From positions 1 to 64,000 of the forward strand of contig JAGVPB010000037.1 in the NCBI GenBank assembly GCA_020052415.1: a DNA stretch of 64,000 nt, in the 5' to 3' direction. A program made the position numbers and the translations under genes. Source of the DNA: Bacteroidales bacterium. GTDB taxonomy: Bacteria; Bacteroidota; Bacteroidia; Bacteroidales; JAADJA01. Position 1 is the first letter of the stretch, and each line of letters opens with the position of its first letter. Positions 2-11,692 of this stretch are shown here, one piece after another. A model generated the notes under the pieces. It did no database searches. It saw nothing but the letters and a program-made list of their open reading frames with translations, and was not told the origin of the DNA.

Positions 2-1897
2 AGCGAAAAAAACATACTTAAGGTCATAAAACCACTGTTCCTCGACAACTTATGGAGGGAGTTCGAACAGGTAAAGGACAACCGGAATAAATTAATCGCA
101 TTCCACGAAAAAATTGCCGGGCTGCGTTTCCTCGATCCCGCCTGCGGTTGCGGAAATTTCCTCGTGATTAGTTATCGCGAATTGCGTTTGCTCGAACTTG
201 AGATCATAAAAGTTCTTCAAAAAGGTCAGATGGTTACCGACATTGCCGAAAAGATAAAACTCGATGTGGACCGCTTTTACGGCATCGAGATCGAAGAATT
301 TCCTTCACAGATCGCACAAGTGGCAATGTGGCTGGCCGACCACCAGATGAACATGAAAGTGAGCGAAACCTTCGGTGAATATTTTATTCGTCTCCCTTTG
401 CGCAAAAGCCCGCATATCGTTTGCGGCAATGCCCTGCGCCTCGACTGGCAAAGCCTCATAGAACCGATCCCATGGGAAAAAGGAGAACCCAAGTTCAATT
501 ATATTTTCGGGAACCCTCCATTTATGGGTTCAAAATTTATGAAACCCATACAAAGGAAAGAGGTGGTAGATTTATTTAATAATTTACCCGGTTCAGGAAT
601 CCTGGACTACGTTACAGCATGGTATGCTAAATCTGCACAATATATTTTACATTTTGCTTTCATAAATCATGAAATCAAATGTGCTTTCGTCTCAACAAAT
701 TCTATCAGCCAAGGCGAGCAAGTTGGCGTTCTTTGGAATGAGTTACTAAACAAGTATAAAATCAAAATTCATTTTGCTCACAGAACTTTTAAATGGAATA
801 ATGAAGCAAAAGGGGTCGCTGCTGTTTATTGTGTAATTATTGGATTTTCAAATTATAATATTTCTGAGAAGCCAATTTTTGAATATTCAGATATTAAAGG
901 AGAACCACATCAGATTATGGTTAGAAATATTAATCCATACTTATTAGAAGGAAATGATCTGTTAATAAAATCAAGGACTAAATCAATTTGCAATGTTCCA
1001 AGAATTAAATTTGGAAACCAACCAATTGATGGTGGAAACTTACTAATGTCTGCACACGAATTTGAAATTTATATTGAGAAAGAACCGGATGGTAAAAAAT
1101 TTATAAGGAGATACATAGGAAGTGAAGAATTAATTAATGGAATAAAAAGGTATTGTTTTTGGTTGAAGGATGCTCAACCTAAAGAAATTCACAACCTTCC
1201 TTTATTGATGAAAAGAATTGAAAATGTTGCAATTTTCAGGCAATCCAGCAAAAGGAAAGAGACACAAGAATTATCTTTAATTCCAACAAAATTTGCTTTC
1301 ATTTCCCATGAAGAAAGATATTATGTAATTATACCGAGTGTATCTTCTGAACGACGCAATTATATACCGATTGATTTTATGGGTAGTGATGTAATTGCCT
1401 CAAATCTATGTTTAATAATTCCCGGAGCAACAAAATATCATTTTGGCATTCTCACTTCTCATATGCACATGGCTTGGGTCAGATATGTCTGTGGAAGACT
1501 TGAAGGTAGGTTAAGATATTCAAATTCTATTGTTTACAACAACTTCCCCTGGCCCGAAAATACATCTAAAAAACAGGTAAAAGCAGTAGAGGAAGCAGCC
1601 CAAAAAGTATTGGATACCCGTGCAGAGTTCTACGCTAATTCCCTTGCCGTTCTATACGATCCCCTCACCATGCCCCCCGCCCTCGTCAAAGCCCACCAGG
1701 CACTCGACAAAGCCGCCGACCTCTGTTACCGTCCCCAGCCATTCATGTCTGAGTCAAAACGGATAGAATACCTCTTCGAACTCTATGATAAATATACGGC
1801 GGGGTTGTTTAAGGAGGAAAAGAAGAAAAGGAAGGAGCGTAGTAATTTACCACAAATAGATGAAGTTGGAGAAAGTGAAAAAACAAATAAAGCATGA
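2..1897 (+). CDS. Class I SAM-dependent DNA methyltransferase, MmeI/YeeA-like (type IIL/IIG restriction-modification); 5' end lies outside the window
   Basis: The frame is open back to base 2 (SEKNILKVIKPLFLDNLWREFEQ...). Motif I-like DPACGCGNFL and motif IV NPPF (FGNPPFMGSKFM) are present, with a C-terminal target-recognition-like region and NNFPWPE. Confidence 0.9.
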   Translation, partial: SEKNILKVIKPLFLDNLWREFEQVKDNRNKLIAFHEKIAGLRFLDPACGCGNFLVISYRELRLLELEIIKVLQKGQMVTDIAEKIKLDVDRFYGIEIEEFPSQIAQVAMWLADHQMNMKVSETFGEYFIRLPLRKSPHIVCGNALRLDWQSLIEPIPWEKGEPKFNYIFGNPPFMGSKFMKPIQRKEVVDLFNNLPGSGILDYVTAWYAKSAQYILHFAFINHEIKCAFVSTNSISQGEQVGVLWNELLNKYKIKIHFAHRTFKWNNEAKGVAAVYCVIIGFSNYNISEKPIFEYSDIKGEPHQIMVRNINPYLLEGNDLLIKSRTKSICNVPRIKFGNQPIDGGNLLMSAHEFEIYIEKEPDGKKFIRRYIGSEELINGIKRYCFWLKDAQPKEIHNLPLLMKRIENVAIFRQSSKRKETQELSLIPTKFAFISHEERYYVIIPSVSSERRNYIPIDFMGSDVIASNLCLIIPGATKYHFGILTSHMHMAWVRYVCGRLEGRLRYSNSIVYNNFPWPENTSKKQVKAVEEAAQKVLDTRAEFYANSLAVLYDPLTMPPALVKAHQALDKAADLCYRPQPFMSESKRIEYLFELYDKYTAGLFKEEKKKRKERSNLPQIDEVGESEKTNKA

Positions 1898-2769
1898 AAA
1901 CAAAAATCCCTGAAGAGCTTTTCCACTATTGTCCATTAAGTTCTCTATTTGGTATTGTTAAATCCAACATTTTACGACTTACCTGTTCAAAATATTCCAA
2001 TGACCCTCATGAGAATATAATTGGTGAAAATGTTTTAAAAGAAATACTTAAGGAGAATATATTGAACCAACAAAAAATTTTTATCACCGAAGTAATAAAG
2101 GAATTAGAAAGGGGAAGAGACTGGTCTATTTTTCACACACCTTATGTATTTTGTATGACAAAAAAAAAGGAAGATTTAAATCAATGGCGAATTTATGCTG
2201 ATAATGGTCGTGGTTTTTGCATTGGTTTAAAGCCTGCTTTTTTTGTTACTGGAATTTACATACAAAGTGATATTGATTCTTCTTTTAATTTTCCCTTAGA
2301 TCTTTATTATGACAAACTTTATATAAATAAATGTATTTACGAATCAGAGAAACAAAAAAAGTTTATTATTCAAATAATTGATCTGTTTACAAACTACCCT
2401 GAAATTAAGAATTTGGATAATGATAAGAAAGTTATTTCTTTTATCCAATACTTTAAACTAATTACCTCATTCTTCAAACATGAATCATATAAAGATGAAG
2501 AAGAATGGAGATTAGTTTGCTTTCCTGTATGTCAGCAATCATTTAATGAGTACAAATTCAAGATCGATTACCTGACTAAACGAAGTGTCATTGTTCCTTA
2601 CATGGAATTTCCTATTCAATCAACATTTGAAAATCCATTATTCTCAGATATTTTTATTGGTTCGAATGTAATTAATACTAGTCAGGAAATTGCAGATTTT
2701 ATTCAAAATAATAAAGCCAATTTTAGAAAATTAATAAGATCTAAAGTTAAAATCCAGGAAATACATTGA
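1894..2769 (+). CDS. DUF2971 domain protein
   Basis: N-terminal ELFHYCPLSSLFGIVKSNILRLTCSKYSNDPHE is typical of DUF2971. Overlaps the methyltransferase by 4 bp (ATGA). Confidence 0.75.
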   Translation: MKTKIPEELFHYCPLSSLFGIVKSNILRLTCSKYSNDPHENIIGENVLKEILKENILNQQKIFITEVIKELERGRDWSIFHTPYVFCMTKKKEDLNQWRIYADNGRGFCIGLKPAFFVTGIYIQSDIDSSFNFPLDLYYDKLYINKCIYESEKQKKFIIQIIDLFTNYPEIKNLDNDKKVISFIQYFKLITSFFKHESYKDEEEWRLVCFPVCQQSFNEYKFKIDYLTKRSVIVPYMEFPIQSTFENPLFSDIFIGSNVINTSQEIADFIQNNKANFRKLIRSKVKIQEIH

Positions 2770-2774
2770 TAAAT

Positions 2775-3974
2775 ATGGCCGATCCAAAACAACTTAAAAT
2801 TCTCAAAAGTGGGGTTGAAAATTGGAATAATTTCAGAAAAGACAATCCCACTTTAAAAATTGATTTAAGCAATGCAGACCTTAGCAAGGTAAAAATTAAC
2901 AATGCAAACTTAGTCTATGCAGATCTTGTCTATTCAAACCTAGTCTATGCTAACCTAAATGGGTCAGACTTTAGCAAGGCTAGCCTTAGCAATGCAAACC
3001 TTTGCGATGCAAATCTTATAGGAACCAATTTCAGTAGGGCAAACCTTAACGATGCGAACCTTAGCGGGGCAAATCTTAGCACAGCAAACCTTAGCCGGGC
3101 AAATCTTACGAAGGCAAACTTTAGCCAAGCAAACCTTAGCCACGTAAAACTTAGATGGGCATACCTTAGCGAGGCAAACTTTAGCGGGGCAGACCTTCAT
3201 AAGGCAAACCTTATGCAAGCTAGGTTTTATTTTACTATTTTTCTCCAATCGCAACTTTCAGAAGCTTCATTTCAAGATGCTCATCTTAATAACACAATTT
3301 TTTCTAACACCAATTTATCAAAAACTAAATTTCTCGAATCATGTATTTTTTATGATAAATGTTTTATTGATTATCACACATTAAGTAAATCCGGTAACCT
3401 ACCTGTTAATTTTTTACGCGGTTGTGGATTATCTGAAACATATATTGAATATATTCCTGCATTATTCAGTAAAGCCATACAGTTTTACTCCTGCTTCATC
3501 AGCTATTCTTCAAAAGACGAAGAAATTGCAAAAAAAATCCATGCTGACTTACAGGATAAAGGAATTCGCTGCTGGTTTGCACCCGAGGATTTAAAGATTG
3601 GCGACAAATTCCGGTCAACTATTCATGAAGCAATCAAAGTCTATGATAAATTGCTTCTTATCATTTCCGAAAATTCCATCAATAGCCATTGGGTCGAAGA
3701 TGAAGTTGAAAAGGCATTTGAAAAAGAAAGAAAACAAAATCGAACCGTATTATTCCCGATCACAGTTGATCAGAATATTTTTAATATTGATGTCGGTTGG
3801 GCCGATTCTATAAAAAACACAAGACATATTGGAGACTTCACCAACTGGAAAAACCATGACAGTTATAAAAAAGCATTTGATAGATTGGTCAGGGATTTAA
3901 AGCAAGAAAACCTCACTGCAATCACTAAAGGAAACATAAATACAATAGTCAATGGCCGATCCAAAACAACTTGA
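2775..3974 (+). CDS. Pentapeptide-repeat + C-terminal TIR domain protein (copy 1)
   Basis: Many A(D/N)L/F-x-x repeats, then FYSCFISYSSKDEEIAKKIHADLQDKGIRCWFAPEDLKIGDKF (TIR). ATG at 2775 (MADPKQL) is preferred over the TTG at 2766. Confidence 0.92.
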   Translation: MADPKQLKILKSGVENWNNFRKDNPTLKIDLSNADLSKVKINNANLVYADLVYSNLVYANLNGSDFSKASLSNANLCDANLIGTNFSRANLNDANLSGANLSTANLSRANLTKANFSQANLSHVKLRWAYLSEANFSGADLHKANLMQARFYFTIFLQSQLSEASFQDAHLNNTIFSNTNLSKTKFLESCIFYDKCFIDYHTLSKSGNLPVNFLRGCGLSETYIEYIPALFSKAIQFYSCFISYSSKDEEIAKKIHADLQDKGIRCWFAPEDLKIGDKFRSTIHEAIKVYDKLLLIISENSINSHWVEDEVEKAFEKERKQNRTVLFPITVDQNIFNIDVGWADSIKNTRHIGDFTNWKNHDSYKKAFDRLVRDLKQENLTAITKGNINTIVNGRSKTT

Positions 3975-5019
3975 AATTCTTAAAAGTGGTGTTGAAAATT
4001 GGAATAGATTTAGAAATGAAAATCCCCATTTAATAATTGATTTAAGCAAGGCAGACCTTATCACTACAGACCTTAGCGATGCATACCTTAGCAGGTTAAA
4101 CCTTACCGGGGCAAACTTTAGCAGGTTAAATCTTACCGGGGCAAACTTTAGCCGGGCTGAACTTTTCGATGTAGACTTTAGTGAGGCAGACCTTAGCGGG
4201 GTAAACTTTAGCGAGACTGAACTTTACGATGTAAACTTTAGCCGAGCAAACCTTTTCATAGCAAATCTTGTCGGTGCAATATTTTCCAGAGCAAATCTTA
4301 TCGGGGCAAACTTTAACGGAGCTATATTATTTTCTACTATTTTTCTCCATTCGTCACTGTCAGAAGCTTCATTCTTGAGTGCTAAACTTAGAAATACAAT
4401 TTTTACTGAAACTGATTTATCAAAGACTGAACAATTAGAATCATGCCAGTTTTTTGGTGAATGTTACATTGATTATCACACACTTAAAAAATCTTGTAAC
4501 CTGCCAGTTAATTTTTTGCGTGGTTGTGGATTATCTGATACTTTTATTGATCACATTCCCGCATTATTTAACAAAGCTATTCAGTTTTACTCTTGCTTCA
4601 TTAGCTATTCTTCAAAAGATGAAGAAATTGCAAAAAAAATTCACGCCGACTTACAGGATAAAGGAATTCGATGTTGGTTTGCACCCGAAGATTTAAAAAT
4701 TGGCGACAAATTTCGGTCAACCATCCATGAAGCAATTAAGGTTTATGATAAATTACTTCTGATAATTTCCGAAAATTCTATCAATAGCCATTGGGTAGAA
4801 GATGAAGTTGAAAGGGCATTTGAAAAAGAAAGAAAACAAAACAGAACTGTACTATTTCCAGTTACAGTTGATCAAAACATTTTTAATATTGATGCCGGTT
4901 GGGCCAATTCCATAAACAAAAGACATATCGGAGACTTCATTTACTGGAAAAACCATGACAGCTATAAAAAAGCATTCGACAGGCTGGTCAGGGATTTAAA
5001 GCAGGAAGGTCCAAAATAA
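3952..5019 (+). CDS. Pentapeptide-repeat + C-terminal TIR domain protein (copy 2, tandem paralog)
   Basis: Starts MADPKQLEILKSGVENWN, nearly identical to copy 1. The TIR domain is almost identical to copy 1 and the repeat region is more diverged. Confidence 0.92.
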   Translation: MADPKQLEILKSGVENWNRFRNENPHLIIDLSKADLITTDLSDAYLSRLNLTGANFSRLNLTGANFSRAELFDVDFSEADLSGVNFSETELYDVNFSRANLFIANLVGAIFSRANLIGANFNGAILFSTIFLHSSLSEASFLSAKLRNTIFTETDLSKTEQLESCQFFGECYIDYHTLKKSCNLPVNFLRGCGLSDTFIDHIPALFNKAIQFYSCFISYSSKDEEIAKKIHADLQDKGIRCWFAPEDLKIGDKFRSTIHEAIKVYDKLLLIISENSINSHWVEDEVERAFEKERKQNRTVLFPVTVDQNIFNIDAGWANSINKRHIGDFIYWKNHDSYKKAFDRLVRDLKQEGPK

Positions 5020-5047
5020 ATTGAAAAATCAAATTAAACAAGTTAAT

Positions 5048-5470
5048 ATGACACAAGAAGAATTTTTAAAAGAAAGAGTAGATGACCAAATAAAATGGTA
5101 TAGCCAAAGAGCTACGACCAATAAAAATTGCCACACTTGGTCAAAAAGCCTTATTATTGGATTTTCAGCAATCATTCCGCTTATTGCAGGCATCGAATTT
5201 AATACTGTTGCGAAAAATTTCCTTCTTGGAATTTTAGGAACTTTAGTAGCAATTTTATCCGGGTTATCGGGTCTATTGAAATTTCAGGAGAAATGGACAG
5301 AATATAGAACAACATCGGAAACATTAAAGCACGAAAAAATACTATTTCAAACCCAGACTGGCCCTTATGATAATGAATCTGATCCGTTTAAGATTCTTGT
5401 TCCAAGGATTGAAAATTTGATAAGTAAGGAACACTCTGCCTGGAGTCAGTATATAAGTAAAGAAAGTTAG
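5048..5470 (+). CDS. SLATT/DUF4231-like two-TM protein (predicted membrane effector)
   Basis: Two adjacent hydrophobic segments (LIIGFSAIIPLIAGI; FLLGILGTLVAILSGLSGLL) followed by KFQEKWTEYRTTSETLKHEKILFQTQTGPY, characteristic of SLATT/DUF4231. ATG at 5048 preferred over TTG at 5021. Confidence 0.8.
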   Translation: MTQEEFLKERVDDQIKWYSQRATTNKNCHTWSKSLIIGFSAIIPLIAGIEFNTVAKNFLLGILGTLVAILSGLSGLLKFQEKWTEYRTTSETLKHEKILFQTQTGPYDNESDPFKILVPRIENLISKEHSAWSQYISKES

Positions 5471-5489
5471 TCATTTCTCTTTTTTAAAT

Positions 5490-5912
5490 ATGCCGGCATT
5501 AAAAACGTACGATTTGTTAATTAGCCATGCTTGGAAATATAATGATGAGTATCATCGGCTTGTCTCTATGCTAAATACCGCTTCATTATTTCATTGGAGG
5601 AATTATAGCGTTCCAAAACATGACCCTAAAATTGATCCTGATTCTTATGCAGGGCGAAAAATACTTTTAGCAGGATTGACCAATCAGATTAAACCAGTCA
5701 ATTGTTTTTTGATACTGTCAGGCATGTATACTCATTATAGCTATTGGATTAATAGAGAAATTGAGATTGCCCAAAAATATCGCAAGCCAATAATTGGAAT
5801 AAGGCCAAGAGGTCAGCTAATTATACCAAAAGTCATTCAAGAAGCTGCCCTTGAAATCACTGGATGGAATACAGATTCCATCGTTTCAGCAATCAGAAGA
5901 AATTCGATTTAA
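5490..5912 (+). CDS. ThsB-like TIR (DUF1863/MTH538-type) protein 1
   Basis: KTYDLLISHAWKYNDEYHRLVSML...FHWRNYSVPKHDP is the DUF1863/ThsB_TIR type N-terminus. 20 bp after the preceding gene. Confidence 0.8.
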   Translation: MPALKTYDLLISHAWKYNDEYHRLVSMLNTASLFHWRNYSVPKHDPKIDPDSYAGRKILLAGLTNQIKPVNCFLILSGMYTHYSYWINREIEIAQKYRKPIIGIRPRGQLIIPKVIQEAALEITGWNTDSIVSAIRRNSI

Positions 5913-5923
5913 AGCAAAATATT

Positions 5924-6331
5924 ATGAGAAAAATATTTATCAGTTACGTTAAGGAAGATGAGCATTATTTATCTACCATTTTAAACTGGAAAAAACAGGA
6001 TCAAAATTTAAATATTGAATTCATCACAGATAGACTGCTAATAAAAAATCCATCTGATAATTCACTTAAAACAAAAACAGAAATCGAAGACTTGCTTAAA
6101 CCGCTCATTGATGCTTCCAATGCAATATTATTATTGGTTGGTAACGACACTCATAATAAGCCCTGGATAGAATGGGAATATAATTACGCTCAAAACCATA
6201 AATTGAAGATTGCATTAATGCAAATTCCAAACTCTACAGGTAATAAACCGAAACTGGTTCCAGAACAGGAAATGTTTAAAATGAATTTAAAGAATTTAAG
6301 GAAAATTATGATTAGTTGGAAGTGGTTATGA
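5924..6331 (+). CDS. ThsB-like TIR protein 2
   Basis: MRKIFISYVKEDEHYL...LIDASNAILLLVGNDTHNKPWIEWEYNYA. ATG at 5924 follows the previous stop by 11 bp. Confidence 0.75.
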   Translation: MRKIFISYVKEDEHYLSTILNWKKQDQNLNIEFITDRLLIKNPSDNSLKTKTEIEDLLKPLIDASNAILLLVGNDTHNKPWIEWEYNYAQNHKLKIALMQIPNSTGNKPKLVPEQEMFKMNLKNLRKIMISWKWL

Positions 6332-6361
6332 AAACAAGACAATATTTAAACAAGCTAAAAA

Positions 6362-6841
6362 ATGGAGGATAATAAATTCAACTTTGATTTTAAATGGGAC
6401 GTATTCAAACATATTGATTCCATACGTGAAGGAAGAACAAATTTTTTCCTTATTGCTGAAGCCATGATGGTGGCTGGTTATATGGCCTTATCATCAACTG
6501 AGTACTTTTTAAGGATTACTGTTGGAATATTAGGTCTAATCTATACGGCATCATGGTTCTTCGTAAATCTAAGACAAAGTAATAGACTAGATCATTTAGC
6601 AAAAAATAATCTACTTTATAATGAGTTTCTTTTAGAGGTTGTTAAGGCTGGCAAAGGAATCCCTGGAATACTTATAATGAATTATGTTTTGCCCTTATCC
6701 ACCACAGCTTTTTGGATAATTTTATTGATTAAGGCATGGATTGGTTTCCCAGGTTCGGCTGAGGTTCTACCTCAGACGAATATATCTATCCAGACTTTGC
6801 ATGAAATCCTCCGTTCCCATGTACTCTTTTTTAATTCGTAA
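6362..6841 (+). CDS. Small multi-TM protein, candidate membrane effector; the C-terminus reads into a REP-like repeat
   Basis: Hydrophobic segments NFFLIAEAMMVAGYMAL, ITVGILGLIYTASWFFV and PGILIMNYVLPLSTTAFWIILLI. Residues after about WIGFP are encoded by the palindromic repeat at 6753. Confidence 0.6.
   Translation: MEDNKFNFDFKWDVFKHIDSIREGRTNFFLIAEAMMVAGYMALSSTEYFLRITVGILGLIYTASWFFVNLRQSNRLDHLAKNNLLYNEFLLEVVKAGKGIPGILIMNYVLPLSTTAFWIILLIKAWIGFPGSAEVLPQTNISIQTLHEILRSHVLFFNS
6753..6803 (+). repeat. REP-like palindromic repeat, copy 1
   Basis: GTTCGGCTGAGGttctaCCTCAGACGAAtatatctatccagact; perfect CTGAGG/CCTCAG stem; matches copies at 6885 and 43765. Confidence 0.75.
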
Positions 6842-7738: not shown

Positions 7739-9598
7739 ATGAAAAAACTCTACATTTTAACTACATTATTGAGTTTGTCGGTTTTTCTATTCGGACAAAC
7801 CTATCTTACTGAAGATTTCAGTTCAAACCAAATGCCACCAACCGGCTGGACGATTGATGGCTTACCTGCCCAATGGTCGGTAGAAGGAAGTAATACCGCC
7901 GGCGGAACAGCACCTGAAGCCATGTTTAGTTACATTAACCAAACTACTACTACGCGGCTTGTTTCTCCTGAGATAGACCTGACAGGGTTAACTTCTGTTA
8001 CTATTTCGTTTAAGCATTTTTACGATGATTATACCGGCGCTGGTCCGGCCATCGGACTGGCAACAAGGTCGTCAGGGGGAAGCTGGAACCAGGTATGGCA
8101 GGTGAGTCCTAACAATAATTTAGGTCCGGAAGACAAGACAATTGAAGTTACAAACGGTGATGTCGGCCAGGCTGACTTTCAATTTTGTCTGTACCTCAAT
8201 GGTAACCTGTATAATGTAGATTACTGGTACATTGATGATATTTCAGTTTTCACACCCTTCAACCTTGATGCTGCCCTTACTGAAGTTGATCTTCCGCAAT
8301 ACGTACAGTACGGTGCCGAACTTGAACTGACCGGAAAAGTGAAAAATATGGGTACTACCAATATCAACTCCTTTGATGTGGCTTACACAGTTGATGGCGG
8401 CAGCCCTGTGGTTTCTAGCTTTACAGGTTTAAATATTGCGTTGGGAGGTTTTTACAATTTTACACATGACACTCCAATTATGCTCCCGGATGCAGGTACT
8501 TATGAAATTGTTGTGACGGTTGAAAATGTGAATGGTGGTACTGATGATAACCTTGCAAATAATTCAATGACCAAATATGTGGGTGCTGTACCCTTCATCC
8601 CTTCGAAAAAAATATTTGCTGAGGAAGCAACAGGTACTTGGTGCGGATGGTGTGTCAGGGGAATTTGCTTTATGGATTATATGTCCGAAACATACCCCGA
8701 AACCTGGATAGGAGTGGCTGTGCATAATGGCGATCCTATGGTGGTGCCTGCTTATGATAATGCCATTCCTTCTATTATTCCGAATTTTCCCGGGTATCCA
8801 AGCGGAGCAATTGACAGGGCAGGTGACAATTACTGGGATCCGTCTGATTTTGAAACAGGCTATCTTGAACGTATAGAGGCAATTTCACCCGCAACGATTG
8901 ATATTGTTAATTTCTCATGGGACCCCATCACAAGGATCGTAAACTTCGATCTCCAGTCAGAATTTATTGTTGATATTAACAGTGAATTAAGGTTTTGTGC
9001 AGTTATGACCGAGGATAGTTGCTGGGGGACTTCAGCACAGTGGAATCAAACCAATTATTATGCCGGCGGAGCCAATGGCCCAATGTGCGGATTTGAAAGC
9101 TTACCCGGGACAATACCCGCTTCGCAGATGCATTATGATCACGTTGCAAGAGCCATTCTTGACACACCTTATGGTACAACGGGTAGTTTGCCTGCAACCA
9201 TCACAGCCGGCGAGGTACATTCCTATACTTATACCTATACACTTCCAACAACCTGGGTTTATGAAAAAATGCATTTCATTGGTATTTTGATTGATATGTC
9301 AACCGGGGAGGTTTTGAATGCAAATAATGTGATCAATTTTGGAACAGGTATCAATGTTACTGAAGCCGGCCAAACCATAAATGCCTTTCCAAATCCGTCA
9401 ACCGGAAAAGTAATGCTTTCCTGTGCCGATTATTCAGCAATTATGATTTATTCTTCTGACGGAACCCTGGTTCGCACAATAACAGAAAATGAATCTGATG
9501 CGGTTGATCTTTCAGACCTGAAAAATGGATTGTACATCCTTAGTATAATTGCTGATGATAATTCGGTCGTTAACAAGAGGATCAGTATTATTAAGTAA
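7739..9598 (+). CDS. Secreted Omp28-like/T9SS type A sorting domain protein (adhesion-type + CARDB-like + thioredoxin-like domains)
   Basis: Signal peptide; FAEEATGTWCGWCVRG motif; C-terminal NAFPNPSTGKVML...KNGLYILSII...VNKRISIIK. Confidence 0.85.
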   Translation: MKKLYILTTLLSLSVFLFGQTYLTEDFSSNQMPPTGWTIDGLPAQWSVEGSNTAGGTAPEAMFSYINQTTTTRLVSPEIDLTGLTSVTISFKHFYDDYTGAGPAIGLATRSSGGSWNQVWQVSPNNNLGPEDKTIEVTNGDVGQADFQFCLYLNGNLYNVDYWYIDDISVFTPFNLDAALTEVDLPQYVQYGAELELTGKVKNMGTTNINSFDVAYTVDGGSPVVSSFTGLNIALGGFYNFTHDTPIMLPDAGTYEIVVTVENVNGGTDDNLANNSMTKYVGAVPFIPSKKIFAEEATGTWCGWCVRGICFMDYMSETYPETWIGVAVHNGDPMVVPAYDNAIPSIIPNFPGYPSGAIDRAGDNYWDPSDFETGYLERIEAISPATIDIVNFSWDPITRIVNFDLQSEFIVDINSELRFCAVMTEDSCWGTSAQWNQTNYYAGGANGPMCGFESLPGTIPASQMHYDHVARAILDTPYGTTGSLPATITAGEVHSYTYTYTLPTTWVYEKMHFIGILIDMSTGEVLNANNVINFGTGINVTEAGQTINAFPNPSTGKVMLSCADYSAIMIYSSDGTLVRTITENESDAVDLSDLKNGLYILSIIADDNSVVNKRISIIK

Positions 9599-9650: not shown

Positions 9651-9713
9651 CTTTGGTGCTATTTATAAATTGTATAAATTACTTATGTGTAATTGATTAT
9701 ATGGAGGAATGTT

Positions 9714-9721
9714 TATTTTTG
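9714..9721 (+). promoter_or_regulatory. Bacteroidetes -7 box TATTTTTG upstream of the UGA-containing Omp28-like gene
   Basis: TATTTTTG 37 bp before ATG 9758, with a TTG at about 9693-9695 in the -33 region. Confidence 0.55.
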
Positions 9722-9757: not shown

Positions 9758-11641
9758 ATGAAAAAACTTTTTACAATTTTATTGGGAATTATTCTTGGCA
9801 TAAGCCTGAATGCCCAGCAAGTCAGCCGCGATATGGTCGTGGTTGAGGGTGGAACCGGATTTTGGTGAGGCTATTGTCCGGGCGCTGCATTAGGAGCAGA
9901 CGAACTCGTAGAAAACGGATTTAACGTAGCAGTCATTGAAAATCACAACGGTGATTCGCTTGCCAACGTTTATTCGAATGCAAGAAACACCTATTATAAC
10001 ATTACCGGCTATCCGACCTATTTTTTTGATGGTGTATTATCGGTCGTGGGTGGAAGCGGGACAACAAGCATGTACAGCTATTATGTTCCAAAAGTAAATC
10101 AGCGGAATGCAATCCTTTCCGATTTCACAATTGATGTTCAGTTTGTTGAAACGGACGGAACTTATACGGCTACAATAACATTGGATAATGTTGGCGGAAA
10201 TACGGGCACTGGGCTTAAGCTTCAGGTTGCAATTACAGAATCCCACATGCCGATCACCTGGGGACTTTCGGATGAAGTGAATTTTGTAAACCGGCTGATG
10301 GTCCCAAACCAGAATGGAACAGACCTGGACTTCAGTGGTGGAAACATACAGACCGTAGTTCTTAACTTTACAACTGCAAGCTTCTGGGATATTGACAATT
10401 GCGAAATAGTGGCCTTTATTCAGAAAAGCTCAAACAAGGAAATTTTACAGGGAACCAAAAAATCAATGGCAGTTCCACTTTATAACCTTGATGCACAGGC
10501 AAAAGCAATCAATTATCCTGTAGGCCAGCATTGCGGTAGTTCGGTTGAACCTGCTGTTGTAATTAAAAACATGGGTGCGGATGACCTCACAAGCCTTGAG
10601 ATAGAGTACAATATTAATGGTGGTTCTTCTCAAATATTTAACTGGACAGGAAATCTTGGTTTTAACCTTGCACAGGAAGTTATTTTACCTTCGATTACTT
10701 TTACTCCCCAGCCAAATAATTCTTTTGAGGTAACTGTCAGCAATCCGAACGGACAGCCTGATCCGAATCCTGATAATAATACCTTGTCCGAGAGTTTTCT
10801 GGCTGCTCCGCAAGTTAATACACCTTCGGTTAATTTTGAAATAAAAACAGATCAATATCCGTCAGAAACAACCTGGAAAGTAAAAAACTCTTCCGGAACG
10901 ATTTTGTATTCGGGCGGGCCTTATACTGGTGCAAATACGGTTTATACAGCCGTGTGGACATTAAGTGATCAGGAATGCTACACATTCACAATTTATGATG
11001 AATATGGCGATGGTATTTGCTGTGCTTATGGCAATGGTTATTATAAGCTGATGGATGCCGGCAATATTGTGTTTGCTCAGGGTGGTGAATTTGGAACAGA
11101 AGAAACCAAACCTTTTGAACGTATAGGGGAGAATATTGTGAATGCAGATTTTACTGCTGATCTCACCAGTATTTTCGAAGGCGAAAGTGTAAATTTCACT
11201 GACCTTTCAACAGGAGGTGTTAACACCTGGAACTGGACGTTTGAAGGTGGCACACCTGCATTTTCCAGTGAACAAAATCCCACTGTAGTTTATAATATTG
11301 AGGGTGTTTATGATGTTACACTGGCTGTTTCGAATGGGATCAACTCCAATACAACGGTAAAACAGGATTACATAACAGTTGATCATATTACAGGTACAGA
11401 TGATCTAAATGCTTCCGGTATTAATATATTCCCAAATCCTTCTACCGGAAGGATATTCATCACCGGGGCTGATAACACAGATTTGAATATTTATAATTCA
11501 ACCGGAATAAAGGTGGCTGCTTACAGCGATTTATCTGGTAATATGATAGATATATCTGATCTTGGAGATGGTATCTATTTTATCAATGTAGTGAGAGACG
11601 GTAAGACATTGCTTAATAAAAAGATCAGCGTACTTAAATAA
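9758..11641 (+). CDS. Omp28-like + CARDB-like + PKD + T9SS type A sorting domain protein with in-frame TGA (codon 37) at the first position of CxxC; candidate selenoprotein or recent pseudogene
   Basis: Manual translation: MKKLFTILLGIILGISLNAQQVSRDMVVVEGGTGFW[TGA]GYCPGAALGADELVENGFNVAVIENHNGDSLANVYSNARNTYYNITGYPTYFFDGV..., then open to the TAA at 11641. The ORF track starts at an internal Met (10046). Confidence 0.8.
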
Positions 11642-11662: not shown

Positions 11663-11692
11663 GAAAAGGCTGCCGCACAAGCAGCCTTTTTA
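11663..11692 (+). terminator. Rho-independent terminator
   Basis: gaaaaggctgc cgcacaa gcagcctttttag. Confidence 0.75.

Follow-up and report, generated by a model that had tools for sequence, protein, structure and literature searches.

Omp28-related selenoproteins with a UxxC motif are, as a broad kind, not new. GOS_C was found in 2008 in Global Ocean Sampling data, with 74 Sec sequences displaying a thioredoxin-like fold and a UxxC motif (PMC2398784), and a 2026 review equates the model NF045500 (Omp28-related selenoprotein, Omp28_seleno) with it (PMC13188914, Table 1). Replacement of the first Cys by Sec, with a UGA codon followed by a hairpin, is also a feature of other bacterial UxxC selenoproteins with a thioredoxin fold (Trx, Prx-like and DsbG-like proteins). 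The published bSECIS rule for such hairpins consists of a G in the first two loop positions, a loop of 3-9 nt and a spacing of 16-37 nt; the same review notes selenoprotein genes outside this rule, which is common rather than obligatory (PMC13188914). HBP35 from P. gingivalis exhibits thioredoxin activity, reducing insulin disulfides with a need for both C48 and C51; it also binds hemin, independently of its CxxC, and complements an E. coli dsbA mutant (PMC2907840). HBP35 is secreted by the Por system, or type IX secretion system (T9SS) (PMC3120885).

We examined a gene on the forward strand of the window, the 64,000-nucleotide stretch of Bacteroidales DNA that was analysed. The gene (9758..11641), delineated by ORF translation, Pfam/NCBIfam matches and a structural model, encodes a protein of 627 residues, whose residue 37 corresponds to an internal TGA that is almost certainly read as selenocysteine. 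As the earlier note had described, the frame begins at ATG 9758, meets this TGA at 9866-9868 (codon 37) and runs for another 590 codons to a TAA at 11639-11641. An ordinary ORF caller reports only a 531-aa ORF starting at GTG 10046. The predicted order of elements is signal peptide, thioredoxin domain, Omp28/HBP35-type beta domain, PKD domain and T9SS C-terminal domain. The signal peptide, MKKLFTILLGIILGISLNA, was predicted by eye at the N terminus (9758..9814). Homolog comparison places the putative Sec (U37) at the first position of a UxxC motif, the second Cys of which (C40, TGT at 9875..9877) is invariant in the alignment. The PKD domain (PF18911, 11171..11380) and the T9SS type A C-terminal sorting domain (PF18962 and TIGR04183, 11426..11626), both proposed in the earlier note, were borne out by Pfam and by TIGR04183, the latter at 36.4 bits against a cut-off of 23. 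The Cys paralog just upstream (7739..9598, forward strand) was confirmed as well; it is a separate gene with a T9SS tail and carries TGTWCGWC at the matching place, the TGA taking the first CxxC position. As for the claim that the gene has a promoter and a terminator of its own, both could be seen by eye: a candidate Bacteroidetes-type -7 motif, TATTTTTG, lies at 9714..9721 with a TTG near 9693-9695, and an inverted repeat followed by T, a likely terminator, lies at 11664..11690, although a consensus scanner gave no terminator by its rule.

The fold and the export signals of the protein were established by comparison. An AlphaFold2 model of the N-terminal domain (21 aligned sequences) showed a mean pLDDT of 95.7 and comprises a thioredoxin and a beta-sandwich domain (9815..10474), with a strand at E7-14, UxxC at 18-21, a helix at H21-33 and P67 in a GYPT loop, followed by the beta domain. 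From the thioredoxin fold, the Pro of this conserved loop (10013..10015) is expected to be a cis-Pro opposite UxxC. The best match among solved structures was HBP35 (5y1a; E 3e-14, TM-score 0.81), and the next was the Omp28 domain 2r2c. The window protein and HBP35 share a thioredoxin domain followed by a beta domain, and a T9SS tail in both, but HBP35 possesses Cys where the window protein would have Sec, identity is 19%, and the hemin role is not transferable. To our knowledge, HBP35 contains no PKD domain, whereas the window protein does. Pfam and structural matches also relate the protein to the Omp28 lipoprotein family (PF11551, NF033782; 2r2c). The match to PF11551 (9986..10465) passes marginally (35.9 bits, gathering cut-off 34.9), whereas that to NF033782 (31.7 bits) is far below the cut-off of 150, and the protein has a T9SS tail instead of the lipoprotein form. 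With GOS_C/NF045500 it shares the relationship to Omp28, a thioredoxin-like fold, UxxC, the existence of Cys homologs and a SECIS-like element, which has been reported for that family; the T9SS tail and the PKD domain set the window protein apart. The NF045500 score was 61.8 bits for the window protein and 57-75 bits for the four Sec copies in its genome, against a cut-off of 200; therefore, these proteins are relatives and not members. A search of 396 genomes of the phylum gave no true NF045500 member at E<=1e-25, a result that does not in itself show absence. In comparison with the Trx, Prx-like and DsbG-like selenoproteins, the window protein is distinguished by predicted T9SS export and an atypical apical loop.

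The genome of the window (G000) encodes the T9SS translocon protein SprA (TIGR04189, 2566 bits). Taking into account the fold, the activity and Por-dependent secretion of HBP35, and the presence of SprA, we propose a surface-bound or released selenol-disulfide oxidoreductase. The protein would be exported by way of its signal peptide and then the T9SS, and at the cell surface or outside the cell it would act as a thiol/selenol-disulfide oxidoreductase of the HBP35/Omp28 type, with Sec37 attacking and Cys40 resolving. A role as a disulfide oxidoreductase is probable, if by no means certain. The selenoprotein might instead be a peroxidase, a metal- or heme-related protein or an oxidative-folding factor. 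Selenols at the surface suit peroxide or metal chemistry. The hemin binding of HBP35 and its complementation of the dsbA mutant (PMC2907840) are also in line with such roles, but this hemin binding does not need the CxxC (PMC2907840), and UxxC together with the conserved GYPT loop constitutes a thioredoxin active site. We consider roles of this kind possible but somewhat doubtful.

Comparison also established that the UGA is conserved at the CxxC column. Among 109 distinct homologs, 22 have TGA in this column, a recurrence beyond chance, and the other 87 have a sense codon (86 TGT or TGC, one ACA); TAA and TAG do not occur. The TGA is kept in close and distant homologs alike. Both CxxC positions were invariant in the 21-sequence alignment when U was counted as C. 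Three further Omp28-like genes of this type occur in G000, at G000:C75:43678, G000:C39:5594 and G000:C56:13193, and all four, the window gene among them, are interrupted by a single TGA at this position. In the genomes of the same genus (n=17), most Omp28-like copies contained one TGA or none. Several homologs derive from independent public Bacteroidales MAGs; a pattern scan of contigs demanded Cys, and its Sec:Cys ratios are biased towards Cys.

The gene could be thought a pseudogene, or the product of a recent nonsense mutation, with its downstream part decaying or translated from the internal GTG 10046, and the 531-aa ORF of the standard caller is what such a gene would give. This is very improbable and is refuted by the conserved TGA column. 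The same TGA recurs in orthologs that are 60-75% identical and come from independent assemblies spread over several GTDB families, and an internal start would cost the protein its signal peptide and active site. In addition, the 590 codons after the TGA, when compared with the G009 ortholog, gave a dN of 0.26 and a dS of 2.7; to judge from these values, the region is evolving as protein, under purifying selection. A recent change from TGC to TGA, the second of the two readings offered in the earlier note, is excluded because the TGA has been kept across several GTDB families. A one-base sequencing or assembly error, which might be suspected in a draft MAG of 94 contigs, is hardly credible for a TGA that occurs in at least 22 distinct sequences, in many assemblies and in four G000 paralogs, and never as TAA or TAG.

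Reading the TGA as Sec, we examined the history of the residue in a tree of 124 sequences. The tree requires six Sec/Cys changes, at least three of them forced by well-supported branches, which points to repeated switching of the residue, in a direction that the count does not tell. The ortholog group of the window gene spans at least three GTDB families and is all Sec except for one tandem Thr copy. This copy (L023, G005:C167:10007-10675), situated beside L008 (G005:C167:7921-8580), has ACA at the Sec position and retains the second Cys. In the Sec copies L016, L020 and L160, other residues take the place of the usual TGTW preceding U (TDAVGU, TQTQU and TSLGU) and UxxC is retained. A distant copy, L029 (G010:C276:5935-6537), contains one TGA and one TAA and is possibly a decayed Sec gene.

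The Sec machinery, again established by comparison, is complete in G000 (4.67 Mb). The genes selA, selB, selC and selD all belong to a single cluster, arranged within 16 kb in the order tRNA-Sec, selA, selB, a YedF-like gene and selD. SelA was detected at 443.5 bits and tRNA-Sec at 58.8 bits (Rfam RF01852) with the anticodon UCA (ARAGORN); selB, selD and the YedF-like gene were assigned from inspection of their sequences. The YedF-like gene lies between selB and selD at L002 4218-4826 on the reverse strand. A general reassignment of TGA, for instance to Trp or Gly, which several genes with a TGA read through might suggest, is refuted by the normal use of TGA for termination in this genome (of the 48 chosen ORFs of the window, 18 end in it, and extensions past it are mostly short), and it also conflicts with the constant alignment of the TGA with Cys, not Trp or Gly, and with the presence of tRNA-Sec (UCA) along with SelA, SelB and SelD.

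SelA occurs in 43 of the 393 genomes of the order. The genomes of the order listed as having a TGA copy, at least 12, were SelA-positive in 12 of 12 cases, with p=6e-13 against all 393 and, for the TGA copies among the matches listed, p=1e-6 against the 91 homolog-bearing genomes (33 SelA-positive); both p-values ignore phylogeny. No TGA copy was present in any of the genomes of the genus without a SelA match (G002, G003 and G008). One genome counts against the link: G012, an 82% complete MAG, carries a TGA copy with only a weak and partial match to SelA (7e-5).

Pairing, covariation and motif counts revealed a SECIS-like hairpin after the UGA (9880..9906, forward strand). Its apical stem is formed by CTGC (9885-9888) and GCAG (9896-9899) and encloses the loop ATTAGGA (9889-9895); in the Sec genes, including the window gene, the TGA and the start of the loop are 20 nt apart. 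The window hairpin forms 8 of the 10 pairs of the family structure. Over all ten pairs, formation was 0.88 in 21 Sec genes and 0.69 in 81 Cys genes (p=7e-7, Mann-Whitney), with synonymous-codon nulls of about 0.69 and 0.66. Pair 21-33, in which both partners are third codon positions, reads A-T in 12 of the Sec genes and T-A in another 8, and so is formed in 20 of 20 comparable cases, versus 27 of 65 Cys genes (p=8e-7). A 7-nt loop of the form ANNNGNA was found in 17/21 Sec genes and 5/81 Cys genes (p=1e-11), and stem and loop motif together follow 16/21 Sec codons and 2/81 Cys codons, all of these counts being over related sequences that are not independent of one another. At other TGA triplets in all the DNA sampled, the stem and loop motif occurred 44 times in 40,947, some of these being further members of both families (see below for the second). 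Two TGA triplets of the window, in any frame, are followed by the motif, and only that at 9866 lies in an open frame. These motif counts are descriptive and partly circular, because the loop was first noticed in the same families.

With respect to the bSECIS rule, the 7-nt length and 20-nt spacing of the window loop fit, but ATTAGGA lacks the early G, and a literal scan with the published rule gave no conforming hairpin in the window gene. The scan is non-discriminating, matching 70/81 Cys genes and 18/21 Sec genes. The folding energy of the window RNA after the TGA is unremarkable (z about -1). The gene is followed by a covarying hairpin specific to Sec genes, but not by one of the published consensus type.

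The sel cluster, the conserved TGA and the Sec-specific hairpin support the reading of the earlier note, an Omp28-family selenoprotein of the T9SS. Two outcomes named there as refuting it, a genome lacking selA/B/C/D and close homologs without a conserved TGA or SECIS, were looked for and did not occur. As a whole, we regard it as highly probable that the gene encodes a selenoprotein whose Sec37 is inserted by means of the cell's own sel genes and the hairpin, and that the product is a T9SS-exported protein of the HBP35/Omp28 type. UGA codon 37 would be decoded as Sec by the tRNA-Sec, SelB, SelA and SelD of the genome, with insertion directed by the hairpin 20 nt downstream and its 7-nt ANNNGNA loop. 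The actual insertion of Sec, the export of the protein and its redox activity are what we infer from these comparisons.

The gene just upstream of selC in G000 (L002 8434-10278, contig G000:C79, reverse strand) encodes a protein of about 615 residues that bears a T9SS tail. The one TGA of the gene falls in MGCYCVD-U-GLTPPG (family motif MGC[FY]C[VL]xU-x-x-TPPG). Each of the 14 full or near-full homologs in the genus carries a single TGA there; none occurs in the three genomes that lack any match to SelA. Across the order, all 17 strong matches carry one TGA, and the 13 genomes concerned are all SelA-positive (13/13). The majority of copies share a contig with selA and sit at most a few kb from it. 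We found no Pfam/NCBIfam model over the Sec region and no Cys form among the strong matches. The gene apparently represents a second, undescribed selenoprotein family. Its loop, 23 nt after the TGA, has A at position 1 in 24/26, G at position 5 in 26/26 and A at position 7 in 26/26 cases. That this putative selenoprotein family, unrelated to the first, has the same ANNNGNA loop is an independent point in favour of the loop.

The statement in the earlier note that no example had been described was too strong, since GOS_C (PMC2398784) and NF045500 exist, but a prior report of the Bacteroidales branch was not found in the open-licence literature on Omp28, T9SS, Bacteroidota or Bacteroidales selenoproteins. 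What looks undescribed, as far as we could see, is a Bacteroidales branch that is divergent, bears T9SS tails, has changed between Sec and Cys several times and uses a SECIS loop at odds with the published rule. It is likely that an uncultured branch of the Bacteroidales has its own T9SS-exported surface selenoproteome, composed of Omp28/HBP35-like UxxC proteins and the Sec-only family adjacent to selC, both with an ANNNGNA class of SECIS missed by the standard rule. Sec use in Bacteroidales would then reach the surface layer exported by the T9SS, and a selenol there would have disulfides or oxidants outside the cell as its targets. Annotation pipelines take these Sec genes for truncated or missing ones, and the ANNNGNA loop provides a pattern for finding more selenoproteins. 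A non-standard loop common to two unrelated gene families tests the range of SelB recognition, and the repeated Sec/Cys switches in one family offer a natural comparison of the two residues.

Elsewhere in the window, positions 164-6841 hold a defence-like cluster with part of an MmeI-type IIG methyltransferase, a DUF2971 protein, two tandem pentapeptide-repeat/TIR proteins and two ThsB-like TIR proteins.
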